Below, piece after piece: positions 58,798 to 64,000 of a DNA stretch of 64,000 nt (the stretch's first letter is position 1; each line of letters starts with the position of its first letter). A model generated the notes under the pieces. That model was given only the letters and a program-made list of their open reading frames with translations. It did no database searches and had not been told where the DNA came from. The stretch lies in the NCBI GenBank assembly GCA_011390885.1, contig JAABRO010000003.1:62001-126000 (forward strand). The letters are read 5' to 3'. This DNA is from Gemmatimonas sp. GTDB lineage: Bacteria > Gemmatimonadota > Gemmatimonadetes > Gemmatimonadales > Gemmatimonadaceae. The position numbers and the translations under genes are program-made.

Positions 58798-58812
58798 TAC
58801 CCCCAGGGGGTA
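58798..58812 (+). promoter_or_regulatory. CsoR/RcnR-type operator palindrome
   Basis: TACCCCC-A-GGGGGTA is a perfect 15-bp dyad starting one base after the acyl-CoA dehydrogenase stop and 34 bp before the next ATG. It matches the A/T-TACCC...GGGTA plan of copper- or nickel-responsive CsoR/RcnR-family sites. No CsoR gene is in the window. Confidence 0.65.
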
Positions 58813-58845
58813 CAAACCCTGCGCCGGCCGCCTTACCTTCCGGTC

Positions 58846-59262
58846 ATGAATTTCGCGCTCCGCCGACTCGTCGCGTTGCTGCTGGCCGTGGGGTTGCTCC
58901 CCGCGGCGAGCGGCGGCTCCGTGTGCCTCGCGCACTGGGGGCTCGACGCGTCGGCGGCGAAGCATGAGCACGGCGGCTCGGTGCCCGAGGTCCAGCACGT
59001 CGGCCACGACGCCGAGTCGCAAGCCCACGCCCACCACGGCGTGACGCCGCCTTCGTCCGGCACGCCAGACGGCGGGAGTGCGCCAACCAACGACCAGCCC
59101 GCGCCCTGCACCGCGCTCTCGGCCTGTGGCGTGCTCGTCACGGTCGACGCAACGCGCCCCGCGGCCACGCCGGCCGCCACCCCGCGCGCCGTCGCGCAGC
59201 GCGCGCACACGATCCCGCCGGGGCCGGCCTCCGCCCCCGAGGTCCCCCCTCCGCGAGCCTGA
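58846..59262 (+). CDS. His/Cys-rich exported protein, candidate metal-binding
   Basis: A 138-aa exported protein with signal peptide LRRLVALLLAVGLLPAASGG. The mature part is rich in potential metal ligands: Cys27, His30, His40, His42, His51, His54, then HAHHG (61-65), and Cys88 and Cys94. The C-terminal 40 residues are Ala/Pro-rich. No family is confidently recognised. With a CsoR-type box directly upstream and a His-rich protein two genes later, a role in periplasmic copper or related metal handling is inferred. Confidence 0.7.
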   Translation: MNFALRRLVALLLAVGLLPAASGGSVCLAHWGLDASAAKHEHGGSVPEVQHVGHDAESQAHAHHGVTPPSSGTPDGGSAPTNDQPAPCTALSACGVLVTVDATRPAATPAATPRAVAQRAHTIPPGPASAPEVPPPRA

Positions 59263-59348
59263 GCACCCATCCGGCCGGCCCCGCCGGTCGATGTCGTGCT
59301 CGTCGCCCCGGACGTTCCGGGGCGCTTCTTCCCGCTCTCGGAGTCTTC

Positions 59349-60230
59349 ATGTTTCGTATGTCCCGCGTGCGCGCGTTGCGCACGCGCCTTCGGGCGCCCG
59401 CCCTCGCCTTCGGCGTGGCCGCGTCCCTCCTGCTCGTCCCGTCGGGCGCTTCGGCGCAGACCGACTACTTCAACACCGACGGCGGTCGCCCGCTGCGCAT
59501 CCAGGACGCCACCGCCGTCGAGTGGCGTGCCATCGAGCTGCAGTTCGCGCCGCTCAAGCTCGACCGCAGCCGCGACGGCCGCTGGCATCCGGAGGTCGAG
59601 CCCGAACTCGCGCTCGGCATCCTGCCGCGCACCGTGCTGTCGTTCGGGTTCCCCATGGTCTCAGTCGACCGGCCGACGATCGCGTCGAGCACGAGCAGCG
59701 CCGGCCGCGTGAACGGCCTGGCCAGCATGCACGTCTCGGTCTTCCACCAGCTCAACATGGAGACGCGGCTGCCGGCCTTCGCCGTGAAGGCCGACGCGCT
59801 GCTGCCCGTGGGGCCGTTCTCGGCCGACAACCCGTACTACACGGTCACCGGCATCGTCACGCGCACGCTCTCGGCGCTCGGCCCTGTGCGTGTACACGGC
59901 AACGCGTCGTACACCATGGGCGATGCGCTGCGCGCCGACACGGCATCCCGCGCGATCGTGCCGCCCGCGCCCCGCTGGCGGGCCGGCGTGTCGATGGACC
60001 GCGCCTTCCCGCTGCAGTCCACGCTCGTTGCCGTGGAAGCGCTGGCGCAGCGCTCGCTGCTCGACGGCGACGAGGTCACGTGGAGCACCGGCGCCGGCGT
60101 GCGCCACCAGTTCTCGCCGCGCATCGTGGTGGACTTCGGTGTGCTGCGCGACCTCACCGGCCCCGACCGCGCGTGGTCCTTCACCGTAGGAAGCGCCGTG
60201 GCGCTCAGCCTCGGCCGTCGCCTCTTCTAA
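59349..60230 (+). CDS. Outer-membrane beta-barrel protein
   Basis: A 293-aa exported protein: signal peptide PALAFGVAASLLLVPSGASA, then amphipathic strands ending in VGSAVALSLGRRLF, whose final Phe is the Bam recognition signature. Strands such as LPAFAVKADALLPVGPFSAD and ALGPVRVHGNASYTMG alternate with polar turns; about 10-12 strands fit the length. It resembles the 'transporter'-type barrels found beside metal-efflux genes. Position two in the CsoR-box operon suggests metal or solute export, which is inference. Confidence 0.75.
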   Translation: MFRMSRVRALRTRLRAPALAFGVAASLLLVPSGASAQTDYFNTDGGRPLRIQDATAVEWRAIELQFAPLKLDRSRDGRWHPEVEPELALGILPRTVLSFGFPMVSVDRPTIASSTSSAGRVNGLASMHVSVFHQLNMETRLPAFAVKADALLPVGPFSADNPYYTVTGIVTRTLSALGPVRVHGNASYTMGDALRADTASRAIVPPAPRWRAGVSMDRAFPLQSTLVAVEALAQRSLLDGDEVTWSTGAGVRHQFSPRIVVDFGVLRDLTGPDRAWSFTVGSAVALSLGRRLF

Positions 60231-60247
60231 GCCACCGGAGCCATCTC

Positions 60248-61429
60248 ATGACCCGATTCCCGATGCGCCGACTGGCCCTTGGCCTTGCGTTCGGCGCGCT
60301 CGCCGCCGGCGCGGCCACGCCGCTCCAGGCCCAGTGGGTGACCACCACCGAGCAGTTCTACCCCGGCGGACGCTGGAACTGGCGCTTCCTCACCGTCTAT
60401 CCCGACGCCGCGAAGATGTTCAACGCGTTCGACTACGGGCACGCCATCCTGTACGAAGTGCTCTGGAAGCACCGGGCCGACAAGGCCGTGCCGCGGCTCG
60501 AGTCGCGCGAGTTCGACTTCCTCACGCAGAAGCTGCTGGTGAACCCGCCGCGCCTGCCGCTCGCCGAGGAGGCGATCATGCCCGCGTACGCGCGCGTGGC
60601 GCCCGAGGCGAAGATGATGTTCGAGTGGGCGCACATCCTGCACCGCCAGATCTACGACATCTGGTCGGATGTGCGGCTCGACGAGGCGACAAAGGATCGC
60701 GAGACGCAGCGCATCATCGACACGTACCTGTCGCGTCCGGACCTCGCGTTCAGCACGAAGCCCAAGAGCATGAAGCTCATGCAGGAGATGCCCTACTCGC
60801 TGGCCTTCCGGAAGGGGTATCCCAGGTTCAACGGACTGATCTGGGCGTACCACTGGCTCCAGGTGGGGCTGTACGAGCCGCTGCTCGTGGCCAAGACGCC
60901 GGAGGAGCGCGATCGCATGGTGCGCGCCACCACCGACCGCTTCCGTGCCATGATCGACAACGCACCCGAGCACATGCCGCGCGTGATGCCGATGACGGCG
61001 GCGATCTCGCCCACGTTCGCGGCGCGCTATCCCACCGCCGCGATCATCTTCGACAACCTGCACTCCATGCACGATGTGATCAGCGACATCCTCGCCAACG
61101 ACAGCGTGCCGCGTGACCGCAAGCGCGCGGAGATCATGCTGGCGGCGCGGCGCTATCGCGATGACACGTCGTACGTGATGCCCGACTCGGCGTGGCGCAC
61201 GATGTCGATCGAGATGGGCGTCGAGAACCAGGGCGGTCCGGCAGTGGGCTTCACCGCGGCGTTCCCCACGCCCACGGTGTCGCGCGGCGCGGTGATGCAG
61301 CACGACGACCTCACCGGCAAGCACATCGGTATGGGGTGGGGCGAGATGCTCGGCGGCGGACACGAGCACCATCAGCACATGCCGGCGAAGCCGGACACGA
61401 TGGCGGCACGGCGAGCGCCCGCGCGCTGA
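60248..61429 (+). CDS. Uncharacterised exported protein with His-rich C-terminus
   Basis: A 393-aa exported protein: signal peptide RRLALGLAFGALAAGAATPL followed by QAQW. The mature part is helical and rich in His, Trp, Tyr and Met: NAFDYGHAILYEVLWKHRAD, EWAHILHRQIYDIWSDVRLD, GLIWAYHWLQVGLYEPLLVA and NLHSMHDVISDILAND. The C-terminus ends GGGHEHHQHMP, a likely metal-binding tail. No family is recognised. It is the last gene before a strong terminator, closing the three-gene CsoR-box unit. Confidence 0.7.
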   Translation: MTRFPMRRLALGLAFGALAAGAATPLQAQWVTTTEQFYPGGRWNWRFLTVYPDAAKMFNAFDYGHAILYEVLWKHRADKAVPRLESREFDFLTQKLLVNPPRLPLAEEAIMPAYARVAPEAKMMFEWAHILHRQIYDIWSDVRLDEATKDRETQRIIDTYLSRPDLAFSTKPKSMKLMQEMPYSLAFRKGYPRFNGLIWAYHWLQVGLYEPLLVAKTPEERDRMVRATTDRFRAMIDNAPEHMPRVMPMTAAISPTFAARYPTAAIIFDNLHSMHDVISDILANDSVPRDRKRAEIMLAARRYRDDTSYVMPDSAWRTMSIEMGVENQGGPAVGFTAAFPTPTVSRGAVMQHDDLTGKHIGMGWGEMLGGGHEHHQHMPAKPDTMAARRAPAR

Positions 61430-61438
61430 ATGCCGAAA

Positions 61439-61469
61439 GCGCCCCCGTGCCGGACCGGCACGGGGGCGC
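61439..61469. terminator. Strong hairpin between convergent genes
   Basis: Perfect 15-bp arms GCGCCCCCGTGCCGG and CCGGCACGGGGGCGC with one central base, flanked by AAA on the left and CTTC on the right. It lies 9 bp after the His-rich protein stop and before the NarL-type gene on the other strand; probably bidirectional. Confidence 0.75.
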
Positions 61470-61505: not shown

Positions 61506-62201
61506 TCACGCGTCGTTCGCCAGCAGCCCCAATCGCAGCGCCAGCTTCACGTAGTCCGTGCGGTGCGTGATGTGCAGCTTCTCGTTGATGCGCTGCTTGT
61601 AGGTGTCCACCGTCTTCGGGCTGATGGCGAGCTGGTCGCCGATCTCGGGGGCGGTGTACCCCTCGGCGAAGAGCTTGAGCACCACCTGCTCGCGATCGGT
61701 GAGCCGCTCGAAGCGGGCCCGGTCGTCGGCGTGCTCCTCCTTGCGCGCGAGGCCGCGGGCCAGCGCGCGCGCCGCCGAGGGCTGCACGTAGATGTCGCCG
61801 GCCGCCACGGTGCGCACCGCGTCCACCAGTTCGCGCTCGGCCACCGTCTTGAGCAGGTAGCCGGCGGCGCCGGCCTCGAGCAGCCCCACCAGGTGCTCGT
61901 CCTCGCTGTGCATGGTGAGCATGAGCACGCGCCGCGTCTGCGGGGTGCCGGCCTCGACCTGCCGCTCGGAGGCCTGCTTCACGAGCGCCTTGGTGGCGGC
62001 CAGCCCGTCCATTTCGGGCATGGACAGGTCCATGACCACCACGTGCGGGTCGAGCCGCTCGGCGAGGGCGAGGGCCTCCTTGCCGTTGTTCCCCTCGCCC
62101 ACGACCATGATGTCCTTGGCGGAGGCGAGGATGGCCTTGAGACCGGCGCGGACGATGGCGTGGTCGTCTACGAGGATGACGCGGATCAGGTCGGGGCGCA
62201 T
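61506..62201 (-). CDS. NarL/FixJ-type response regulator
   Basis: A 231-aa two-component regulator. The receiver domain has Asp12 and Asp13 (VILVDDHAIVRAG), the phospho-acceptor Asp58 in VVVMDLSMPEMDG, Thr in VLMLTMHSEDEH and Lys in GYLLKTVAE. The C-terminal LuxR-type helix-turn-helix is LTDREQVVLKLFAEGYTAPE followed by IGDQLAISPKTVDTYKQRIN. A short insertion (KQASERQVEAGTPQTRR, about 75-91) enlarges the receiver. The partner histidine kinase is not in the window. cydB lies 73 bp away on the same strand. Confidence 0.92.
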   Translation of the reverse strand: MRPDLIRVILVDDHAIVRAGLKAILASAKDIMVVGEGNNGKEALALAERLDPHVVVMDLSMPEMDGLAATKALVKQASERQVEAGTPQTRRVLMLTMHSEDEHLVGLLEAGAAGYLLKTVAERELVDAVRTVAAGDIYVQPSAARALARGLARKEEHADDRARFERLTDREQVVLKLFAEGYTAPEIGDQLAISPKTVDTYKQRINEKLHITHRTDYVKLALRLGLLANDA

Positions 62202-62274: not shown

Positions 62275-63327
62275 TCAGCGGTCCATCTGCTCGAACACCG
62301 TCTCGCGCCGCTTGAAGATGCGGAACAGGTACACGAAGGACGGCAGCAGGATCACCGTGCCCACGCCCAGCACCGTGAGCACCAGCTGCTGCGTGATGCG
62401 CGGGGCGGAGAGCTCGGTGATGGTGTGCGAGGGCGGAATGAGCCACGGGAACTGCGACCAGGCCCACCCCCACAGCAGGAACGACGCCTGCGCGGCGGCC
62501 GCCAGCACCGCCAGCAGCCAGTGGCGCCGCCAGAGCGCCCAGAGCCCCGTCAGGCCGGCCGCGGCGGTGACGGCGTGCATGCCGAGCGCCACACGGCCGC
62601 GCGTGAGCCCCTCGAACACGAGCGGCGCATGCTCGCGGGCCAGCGCGATCGTGAGCACGCCGGCCGCGAACACGGCGAGCGCGGAGAGCATGGCGCGATG
62701 TCGGAAGTCTTCCTCGAGCCCGGGGTCGACGCTCTCCCACGCGAGGTACACGGCGGCGAGATGCGCGAACAGCGCCAGCGCGAGCACCCCCACGGCCAGC
62801 GTGAAGGGCGTGATCCACGGCCCGAGATACACCTGCGCGAAGGTGCGCGTGGCATCGGGGGGCGCGAGCGGAATGGCCCCGCTCGCCACCGCGCCCACGC
62901 AGATGCCGAGCAGCACCGGCGTGACCACGCTCGCGATCGCGAAAATGCGCCCCCAGCGACGCTGCACCGTGTCGGCCTTGCTGTCGTAGCTGCGGAAGGT
63001 GAACGCCGAGCCGCGCAGCACGATGCCCACGAGCATGAGCGTGATCGGCACGTGCAGCGCCGTGGACAGGTGCGCGAACGCGCGCGGGAAGCAGGAGAAG
63101 AGCAGCACCACCACGAGAATGAGCCACACGTGGTTGGCTTCCCAGATCGGGCCGATCGCCTCGGCGACCGCGGCGCGCTGCTCTTCACGGCGCGGTCCGC
63201 GCGCGAAGAGGTCCCACACGCCGCCGCCGAAGTCCGCGCCGGCGAGCAGCACGTACGCATTGAGCGAGAGCACCATCACGCCGGCCACGGCGTGTGGCAG
63301 GGTGAAGATCGCCTCGTCGGCACCCAT
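62275..63327 (-). CDS. cydB: Cytochrome bd oxidase subunit II
   Basis: CydB is the smaller core subunit of the quinol-oxidising cytochrome bd terminal oxidase, which works at low oxygen. The 350-aa protein has eight to nine membrane helices and typical features: NAYVLLAGADFGGGVWDLFA near the N-terminus, AVAEAIGPIWEANHVWLILV with the conserved Trp-Glu-Ala-Asn-His-Val-Trp element, GIVLRGSAFTFRSYD, and WAWSQFPWLIPPSHTI near the C-terminus. It lies 28 bp after cydA and forms the usual cydAB operon on the minus strand. Confidence 0.93.
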   Translation of the reverse strand: MGADEAIFTLPHAVAGVMVLSLNAYVLLAGADFGGGVWDLFARGPRREEQRAAVAEAIGPIWEANHVWLILVVVLLFSCFPRAFAHLSTALHVPITLMLVGIVLRGSAFTFRSYDSKADTVQRRWGRIFAIASVVTPVLLGICVGAVASGAIPLAPPDATRTFAQVYLGPWITPFTLAVGVLALALFAHLAAVYLAWESVDPGLEEDFRHRAMLSALAVFAAGVLTIALAREHAPLVFEGLTRGRVALGMHAVTAAAGLTGLWALWRRHWLLAVLAAAAQASFLLWGWAWSQFPWLIPPSHTITELSAPRITQQLVLTVLGVGTVILLPSFVYLFRIFKRRETVFEQMDR

Positions 63328-63355
63328 CAGGCGTGCTCCATCGCGTGCCGGGACA

Positions 63356-64000
63356 TCAGGCGCGCCCCGGGAGCGGCAGCTCCTGCGTGATGCCGGGGCG
63401 CAGCGTGGTGTCCACGGCGGTCTTGAGGATCTGCCGATAGAGCAGCCACACCACGGCCACCGAGAGTCCGAGGTACAGCAGCGTGAAGCCGAGGAACGGC
63501 ACCACCAGCCCCGGCATGGGGGTGACCGCGTCGGCGGTGCGCATGATCCCCTGCACGATCCACGGCTGGCGCCCCACCTCGGTGACCGTCCACCCCGCCT
63601 CGACCGCGATGAAGCCGAGTGGCGCGCTGACCGCGAGTGCGCGCAGGTACCAGGTGTCGTTCGGGAGCGGCGTGCCCTTGCCGTGACGGCGGCGCTGCGC
63701 GCGCACGATGGTGTACAGCCCCACGAGCATCATGACCACGCCGCACCCCACCATGATCTGGAAGGCGAGGTGCACGATGCCCACCGGCGGCCGGTCCTCG
63801 GGGGGCACGCTGTCGAGCCCGGGAATGCTCGTGTTCGCGTCGCCCGTCATGAGCAGCGAGATCGCGCCCGGCACCTCGATGGCGAAGCGGTTCTCGCCGG
63901 TGGTGGCATCGGGCCAGCCGCCGATCACGAAGGGCGCTGGTCCGCTGTGATGGTGCGCTTCCATGGCCGCGAACTTCACCGGCTGGTACTCGGCCGCATG
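63356..64000 (-). CDS. cydA: Cytochrome bd oxidase subunit I, C-terminal part (runs off the window)
   Basis: CydA carries haems b558, b595 and d and the quinol site. Only the last 214 codons are visible; the N-terminal part lies beyond 64000. The region shows QPVKFAAMEAHHHSGPAPF (the conserved KxAAxE segment), PVGIVHLAFQIMVGCGVVMM, and WTVTEVGRQPWIVQGIMRTA, a highly conserved CydA signature. The last helix, LYLGLSVAVVWLLYRQILKT, precedes a short polar tail. Whether the Q-loop is of the long or short type cannot be judged from this portion. Confidence 0.93.
   Translation of the reverse strand, partial: HAAEYQPVKFAAMEAHHHSGPAPFVIGGWPDATTGENRFAIEVPGAISLLMTGDANTSIPGLDSVPPEDRPPVGIVHLAFQIMVGCGVVMMLVGLYTIVRAQRRRHGKGTPLPNDTWYLRALAVSAPLGFIAVEAGWTVTEVGRQPWIVQGIMRTADAVTPMPGLVVPFLGFTLLYLGLSVAVVWLLYRQILKTAVDTTLRPGITQELPLPGRA

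Follow-up and report, generated by a model that had tools for sequence, protein, structure and literature searches.

A CsoR-type operator precedes a probable copper-detoxification operon pairing an outer-membrane channel with a candidate metalloprotein in Gemmatimonas

A stretch of 64,000 nucleotides from Gemmatimonas sp. (hereafter the window) carries an operator of the CsoR type before three genes, P2, P1 and P3, whose relatives in other genomes are found beside copper genes. We consider it probable that the three form a copper-induced detoxification operon of the periplasm and outer membrane, in which P3 would handle copper at the periplasmic opening of P1. Such a module would be an analogue of PcoAB without being its homologue. 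The preliminary description of this DNA, that of a compact periplasm-to-outer-membrane metal-handling system, thus appears mostly to hold, as other genera carry these genes next to copZ, copA and csoR.

Results

The operon is read from the plus strand in the order P2-P1-P3, between the operator and a closing hairpin, and the loci closest to it are those of Gemmatimonas sp. MAGs. The palindrome described earlier as preceding three consecutive genes was located at 58798-58812 (TACCCCCAGGGGGTA, not assigned to a strand), with these genes downstream. P2 (58846-59262, plus strand) encodes the small Cys/His-rich exported protein that had been noted as the first product; it has 138 amino acids, a signal peptide, 3 Cys and 9 His, with an early Cys, a C-x5-C motif and a Pro-rich PEVPPPR tail. 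A PHROGs search made for the operon gave no match. Genes likened to P2 by their features (small, exported, His-rich, with Cys) precede P1 in the Manganitrophus loci and occur near the P1-P3 pair in locus L102. The strong terminator reported for the unit corresponds to a strong hairpin at 61439-61469 (plus strand; 14-bp stem, -37.4 kcal/mol, z -6.0), but a run of T does not follow it. Further downstream on the minus strand are a LuxR/NarL-type response regulator gene (61506-62201) and, beyond it and facing the copper operon, genes for cytochrome bd oxidase subunits II and I (62275-63979; PF02322, PF01654). Oxidases of the bd type need no copper, and the proximity of these genes to the operon may or may not be meaningful.

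The operator begins directly past the stop codon of an acyl-CoA dehydrogenase gene that lies upstream, and 33 bases separate its end from the first ATG, which starts P2. With its C and G tracts, it fits the published consensus of type 2 CsoR operators, TAC-X9-GTA around G/C tracts, a Streptomyces example of which is ATATACCCCTNAGGGGTATAT (PMC3902906), and its sequence has no second match in either the window or the whole 4.07-Mb genome (62 contigs). All exact TACCCC-N1-5-GGGGTA sites were collected from 99 Gemmatimonadaceae genomes, and their distances to csoR and P3 genes were computed. Among the 42 sites found, 29 had the 15-bp spacing and 13 had other spacings; 24 of the former lay within 6 kb of csoR or the P3 set, compared with none of the latter (Fisher p = 3e-7), and nine sites were observed near P3 where 0.06 were expected. 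Only five sites of the 15-bp form were left unexplained in the 99 genomes (roughly 400 Mb), so that about 0.001 or fewer would be expected by chance in 64 kb. The single occurrence of the palindrome, together with the linkage of such sites to csoR and P3 across the 99 genomes, ruled out a chance palindrome. A terminator of the upstream gene was also ruled out, because four species keep the site at a distance of 21 nt from a -10-like hexamer downstream, and elsewhere it precedes copZ or csoR.

The palindrome is conserved upstream of orthologues in the window's genus: each of four genomes has exactly one site, always upstream of the P2-P1-P3 operon, with csoR elsewhere, while a fifth genome (64% complete) has P3 and no exact site. 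More widely, a box with at most one mismatch stands directly upstream of P1 in only 5 of 54 loci, which ruled out such a box before every P1 gene, and a recognisable box directly upstream is absent at many P3 loci. It is in some Gemmatimonadaceae that the box is tightly linked to the operon. In the window, the -10-like hexamer, TACCTT (58834-58839, plus strand), lies 21 nt past the operator, with the ATG 6 nt further on; the 21-nt spacing recurs in L033, L034 and L036, and in these four loci the ATG follows the hexamer by 2-6 nt. A generic sigma-70 promoter scan gave no match. The fixed spacing and the nearby ATG suggest that the -35 region would lie under bound CsoR and that the mRNA may be leaderless.

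The genome has a single CsoR-family gene, which lies on contig C20 and does not adjoin the operon; its product would act in trans on the operator. This protein carries the Cys-His-Cys residues for Cu(I), its site ending in Cys (HLKHC), as do the CsoR proteins encoded next to P3 in relatives. The residue set of RcnR is His-Cys-His-His, and this set is absent from the genome's single CsoR-family protein. The co-occurrence of CsoR and P3 across genomes is uninformative, as 90 of the 99 genomes have CsoR.

No known copper gene had been noted in the unit, and this is correct for the cluster in the window, but relatives carry copper genes beside their copies of it. Among 45 P3 loci, 13 have csoR at most 2 kb away. 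In Roseisolibacter sp. H3M3-2 (L038), box, copZ, copA, csoR, P2, P1 and P3 follow one another on one strand; L008 has two boxes followed by copZ, P1 and P3, and L120 has copA, csoR, a P2-like gene and P1. P-type ATPases scoring above the copper-type cut-off (TIGR01511) occur near P1-P3 in L038, L053, L063, L077, L084 and L092, and the copper subfamily model scores far above the cadmium/zinc models for the neighbouring ATPases. CusA-type pumps (TIGR00914) are found in L042 and L101, and CopZ-like proteins with a GMTCxHC motif share operons with the P1-P3 set in relatives. With copper genes as neighbours of the same set, no unrelated pathway emerged to which the three proteins could be assigned. 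The metal of the window operon is almost certainly copper, judging from these sequences. The earlier reading of the palindrome as a copper- or nickel-responsive CsoR/RcnR plan can accordingly be narrowed to the copper CsoR type, nickel or zinc being unlikely because the regulator has Cys-His-Cys and the neighbouring ATPases pass the copper-type cut-off.

The arrangement of the relatives linked to copZ-copA-csoR is likely to be ancestral. The window's genus branches from among csoR-linked lineages in the P3 tree, which suggests that the window's module left the copZ-copA-csoR run and retained its own operator. Two further observations were made at the relatives' loci. A pair of genes for a BlaI-type repressor and an M56 peptidase is close to P1-P3 in L037, L041, L042, L053 and L100, and is possibly an alternative copper-responsive switch that replaces CsoR. 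Mutually related small exported Cys/His proteins are encoded near P3 at L101:5039-5425 (VDLACYMAHEGKGAKHQKCAKAC) and L102:4872-5372; the former adjoins CusA and had no match in a Pfam search, and the two may represent another undescribed copper-linked family.

P1 (59349-60230, plus strand) encodes a protein of 293 amino acids, and its description as an outer-membrane barrel was confirmed. PF13557 was the sole family matched (27.1 bits, cut-off 22), a match also found at E 0.01 in 30 of 67 P1 homologues. The predicted model (pLDDT 89) shows about twelve long strands arranged as a barrel, and its best matches among solved structures were the COG4313 channel Pput2725 (4rl8, E 1.2e-8) and then FapF. 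The strongly conserved segment 36-54 (QTDYFNTDGGRP...EDA) stands before the first strand, where COG4313 channels have a lumen-blocking segment (PMC4493636). On the strength of this model, P1 belongs with the known COG4313 channel fold. The members studied so far have been proposed to import hydrophobic molecules (PMC4493636), and P1 therefore need not carry metal.

P3 (60248-61429, plus strand) encodes an exported helical protein with a His/Met-rich C-terminal tail. Its length of 393 amino acids is as first described, but the C terminus lies 15 residues past the HEHHQHM sequence that had been given as its end. Six His residues (65, 129, 132, 202, 272 and 275) are invariant in 77 P3 proteins, and they lie on helices 52-74, 119-140, 192-207 and 262-283; other invariant polar residues include D62, E107, D137, Q205, D269, N270, D276 and D280. 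An MxxM motif (175/178) is near-invariant, as is M249 of an MxM motif (247/249) in which M247 is invariant. A Methylobacterium homologue with 25% identity retains all six His in the alignment but has lost D62, D276 and D280, suggesting that the core consists of the six His. As for the invariant Asp/Glu residues, they would equally suit iron, manganese or zinc. In the tail, His and Met account for 6.9% and 7.5% of residues, compared with 2.9% and 4.6% in the domain. About ten homologues (e.g., L012, L014 and L016) have an appended C-terminal domain of the SnoaL/DUF4440 type, and others have Lys/Ala/Pro-rich His/Met tails; these varied additions indicate that the C terminus of P3 evolves quickly.

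A Pfam/NCBIfam scan of the 77 P3 proteins found no family on the core, the only matches being weak or to the appended SnoaL/DUF4440 domains; no cupredoxin family was matched by P3 or its 76 relatives, and a PDB sequence search with P3 gave no match. The AlphaFold model of P3 is confident (pLDDT 91.4, pTM 0.86). Compared with the PDB, it gave a best Foldseek E of 0.47 and VIA Z scores of at most 3.9, which does not in itself prove a new fold; the matches obtained were receptor-type helical noise and were rejected. P3 most likely represents an undescribed metalloprotein family, with a confidently predicted fold for which the PDB comparison gave no convincing match. The earlier statement that the system has no described counterpart thus stands for the P3 family, but not for P1, with its COG4313-type fold.

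P1 adjoins P3 in 84 unfused loci (some genomes having been fetched twice), often with a 4-bp overlap, and in eight loci, L058 and L029 among them, the two are fused into one polypeptide. Five changes between the fused and unfused states were counted on the tree. Adjacency was found in nearly every locus, across Gemmatimonadota, Nitrospirota, Verrucomicrobia and Methylobacterium plasmids, and the order of the two genes is reversed in Methylomirabilota, Elusimicrobia and Verrucomicrobiia. The Methylobacterium plasmid pair matches both the P1 and the P3 profiles (99.8% and 99.5% probability), and plasmid searches returned only Gemmatirosa and two Methylobacterium. In the fusions, P3 comes after the last barrel strand, which, with an ordinary barrel topology, would place P3 in the periplasm at the mouth of the channel.

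Two of these settings deserve separate mention. On a Methylobacterium fujisawaense plasmid (L126:8746-11101), a divergent P3-P1 pair lies beside NADH-quinone-oxidoreductase (complex-I)-like genes, with no obvious copper context. Candidatus Manganitrophus and relatives, which belong to a manganese-oxidising group of Nitrospirota, have P1-P3 sets (L094, L096 and L097) preceded by a well conserved gene for a small His-rich exported protein, and one genome of the group carries two sets (L094 and L097).

Discussion

We propose the following mechanism. The CsoR encoded on contig C20 would sit on the palindrome over the -35 region and repress P2-P1-P3. When cytoplasmic Cu(I) rises, CsoR would bind it and leave the operator, and P2, P1 and P3 would be made and exported to the envelope. 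There, P3 may bind copper at a buried site formed by the six His and several Asp/Glu residues on four helices, with the Met motifs and the His/Met tail as a possible entry route, and may store, oxidise or pass on the metal while docked at the periplasmic mouth of P1. Copper would then leave through P1 or be held at the outer membrane, and P2 would serve as a small His/Cys-rich periplasmic copper buffer. A more specific suggestion, which we regard as tentative and rather doubtful, is that P3, in an unsolved fold, has a four-helix core whose six invariant His form a copper centre, dinuclear (type-3-like) or larger, and that it oxidises or stores copper while tethered to the outer-membrane channel. 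If true, this would represent bacterial periplasmic copper clearance without a multicopper oxidase.

The direction of flow through P1 could also be the reverse. Under the same regulation, P1 would admit copper to the periplasm, and P3 and P2 would sequester it there as a sink, as proposed for E. coli PcoB. The direction of PcoB is itself disputed: its structure has been taken to argue for import and periplasmic accumulation (PMC9210255), whereas the Caulobacter PcoB works in efflux (PMC12509749). P2 and the P3 tail resemble sequestration devices, and COG4313 channels have been described as uptake channels (PMC4493636); CsoR-type control and the CopA and CusA neighbours, however, suit export better, and we consider a sink unlikely. 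Somewhat less likely again is that P3 is an enzyme, be it an oxidase (copper or di-metal) or a metallo-hydrolase, which repairs or protects the envelope in copper stress, P1 carrying the substrate of P3 rather than copper. The invariant His/Asp set on the helices looks catalytic, and COG4313 channels do bind hydrophobic molecules (PMC4493636), but P3 matched no enzyme family or fold in the comparisons made, and its Met motifs and His/Met-rich tail point to bound copper. That a regulator resembling RcnR or InrS makes the operon respond to nickel, cobalt or zinc is highly improbable, for although the operators of RcnR and InrS have G/C tracts similar to those of CsoR, the only CsoR-family protein is Cys-His-Cys and lacks the RcnR His set, the neighbouring ATPases fit the copper model far better than the cadmium/zinc models, and CopZ-like proteins are encoded in the same operons.

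The detoxification operon that we favour combines known and seemingly new elements. CsoR control of copper genes and the channel fold of P1 are already known; no description of the three-gene set, of the P3 family or of fusions between barrel and P3 came up in the libraries and literature searched, both of which were partial. The window operon agrees with CsoR regulons such as copZA of Streptomyces and Bacillus and the mycobacterial RicR regulon in operator class, in the Cys-His-Cys residues of the regulator and in the linkage of sites to copper genes across genomes, and copZ, copA and csoR share a run with the P1-P3 set in some relatives. The targets of CsoR regulons include CopZ/CopA, metallothionein and a multicopper oxidase. 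An outer-membrane channel with a P3-type partner was not found among them in the part of the literature searched. Like P1, the COG4313 channels Pput2725, SphA and TcpY (PF13557) are 12-stranded barrels in which a conserved segment precedes the first strand; P1 differs from these proposed importers of hydrophobic molecules in its CsoR operator and in being paired or fused with P3.

The closest functional model, by analogy, is PcoA-PcoB (CopA-CopB), known from Caulobacter and from E. coli Pco, a copper module in which two genes likewise encode a metalloprotein of the periplasm and a barrel of the outer membrane. The PcoA and PcoB genes overlap by 4 bp, an overlap also frequent in P1-P3, and the metalloprotein has been proposed to hand copper to the barrel from the periplasmic side (PMC12509749). 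In contrast, P1 lies outside the PF05275 barrels and P3 outside the multicopper oxidases, and the operator of P1-P3 is of the CsoR type. The window's genome has no PF05275 (PcoB) protein; P1-P3 as a strict replacement for PcoB was nevertheless not supported, as P3 was found in seven of the nine relatives that carry PcoB. Little is understood of how copper crosses the outer membrane or is neutralised there. The P1-P3 pair occurs in several phyla and is sometimes fused, so that hand-over between metalloprotein and barrel can be approached on a single chain. P1-P3 would thus stand beside PcoA-PcoB as a second, unrelated protein pair for seemingly the same job.
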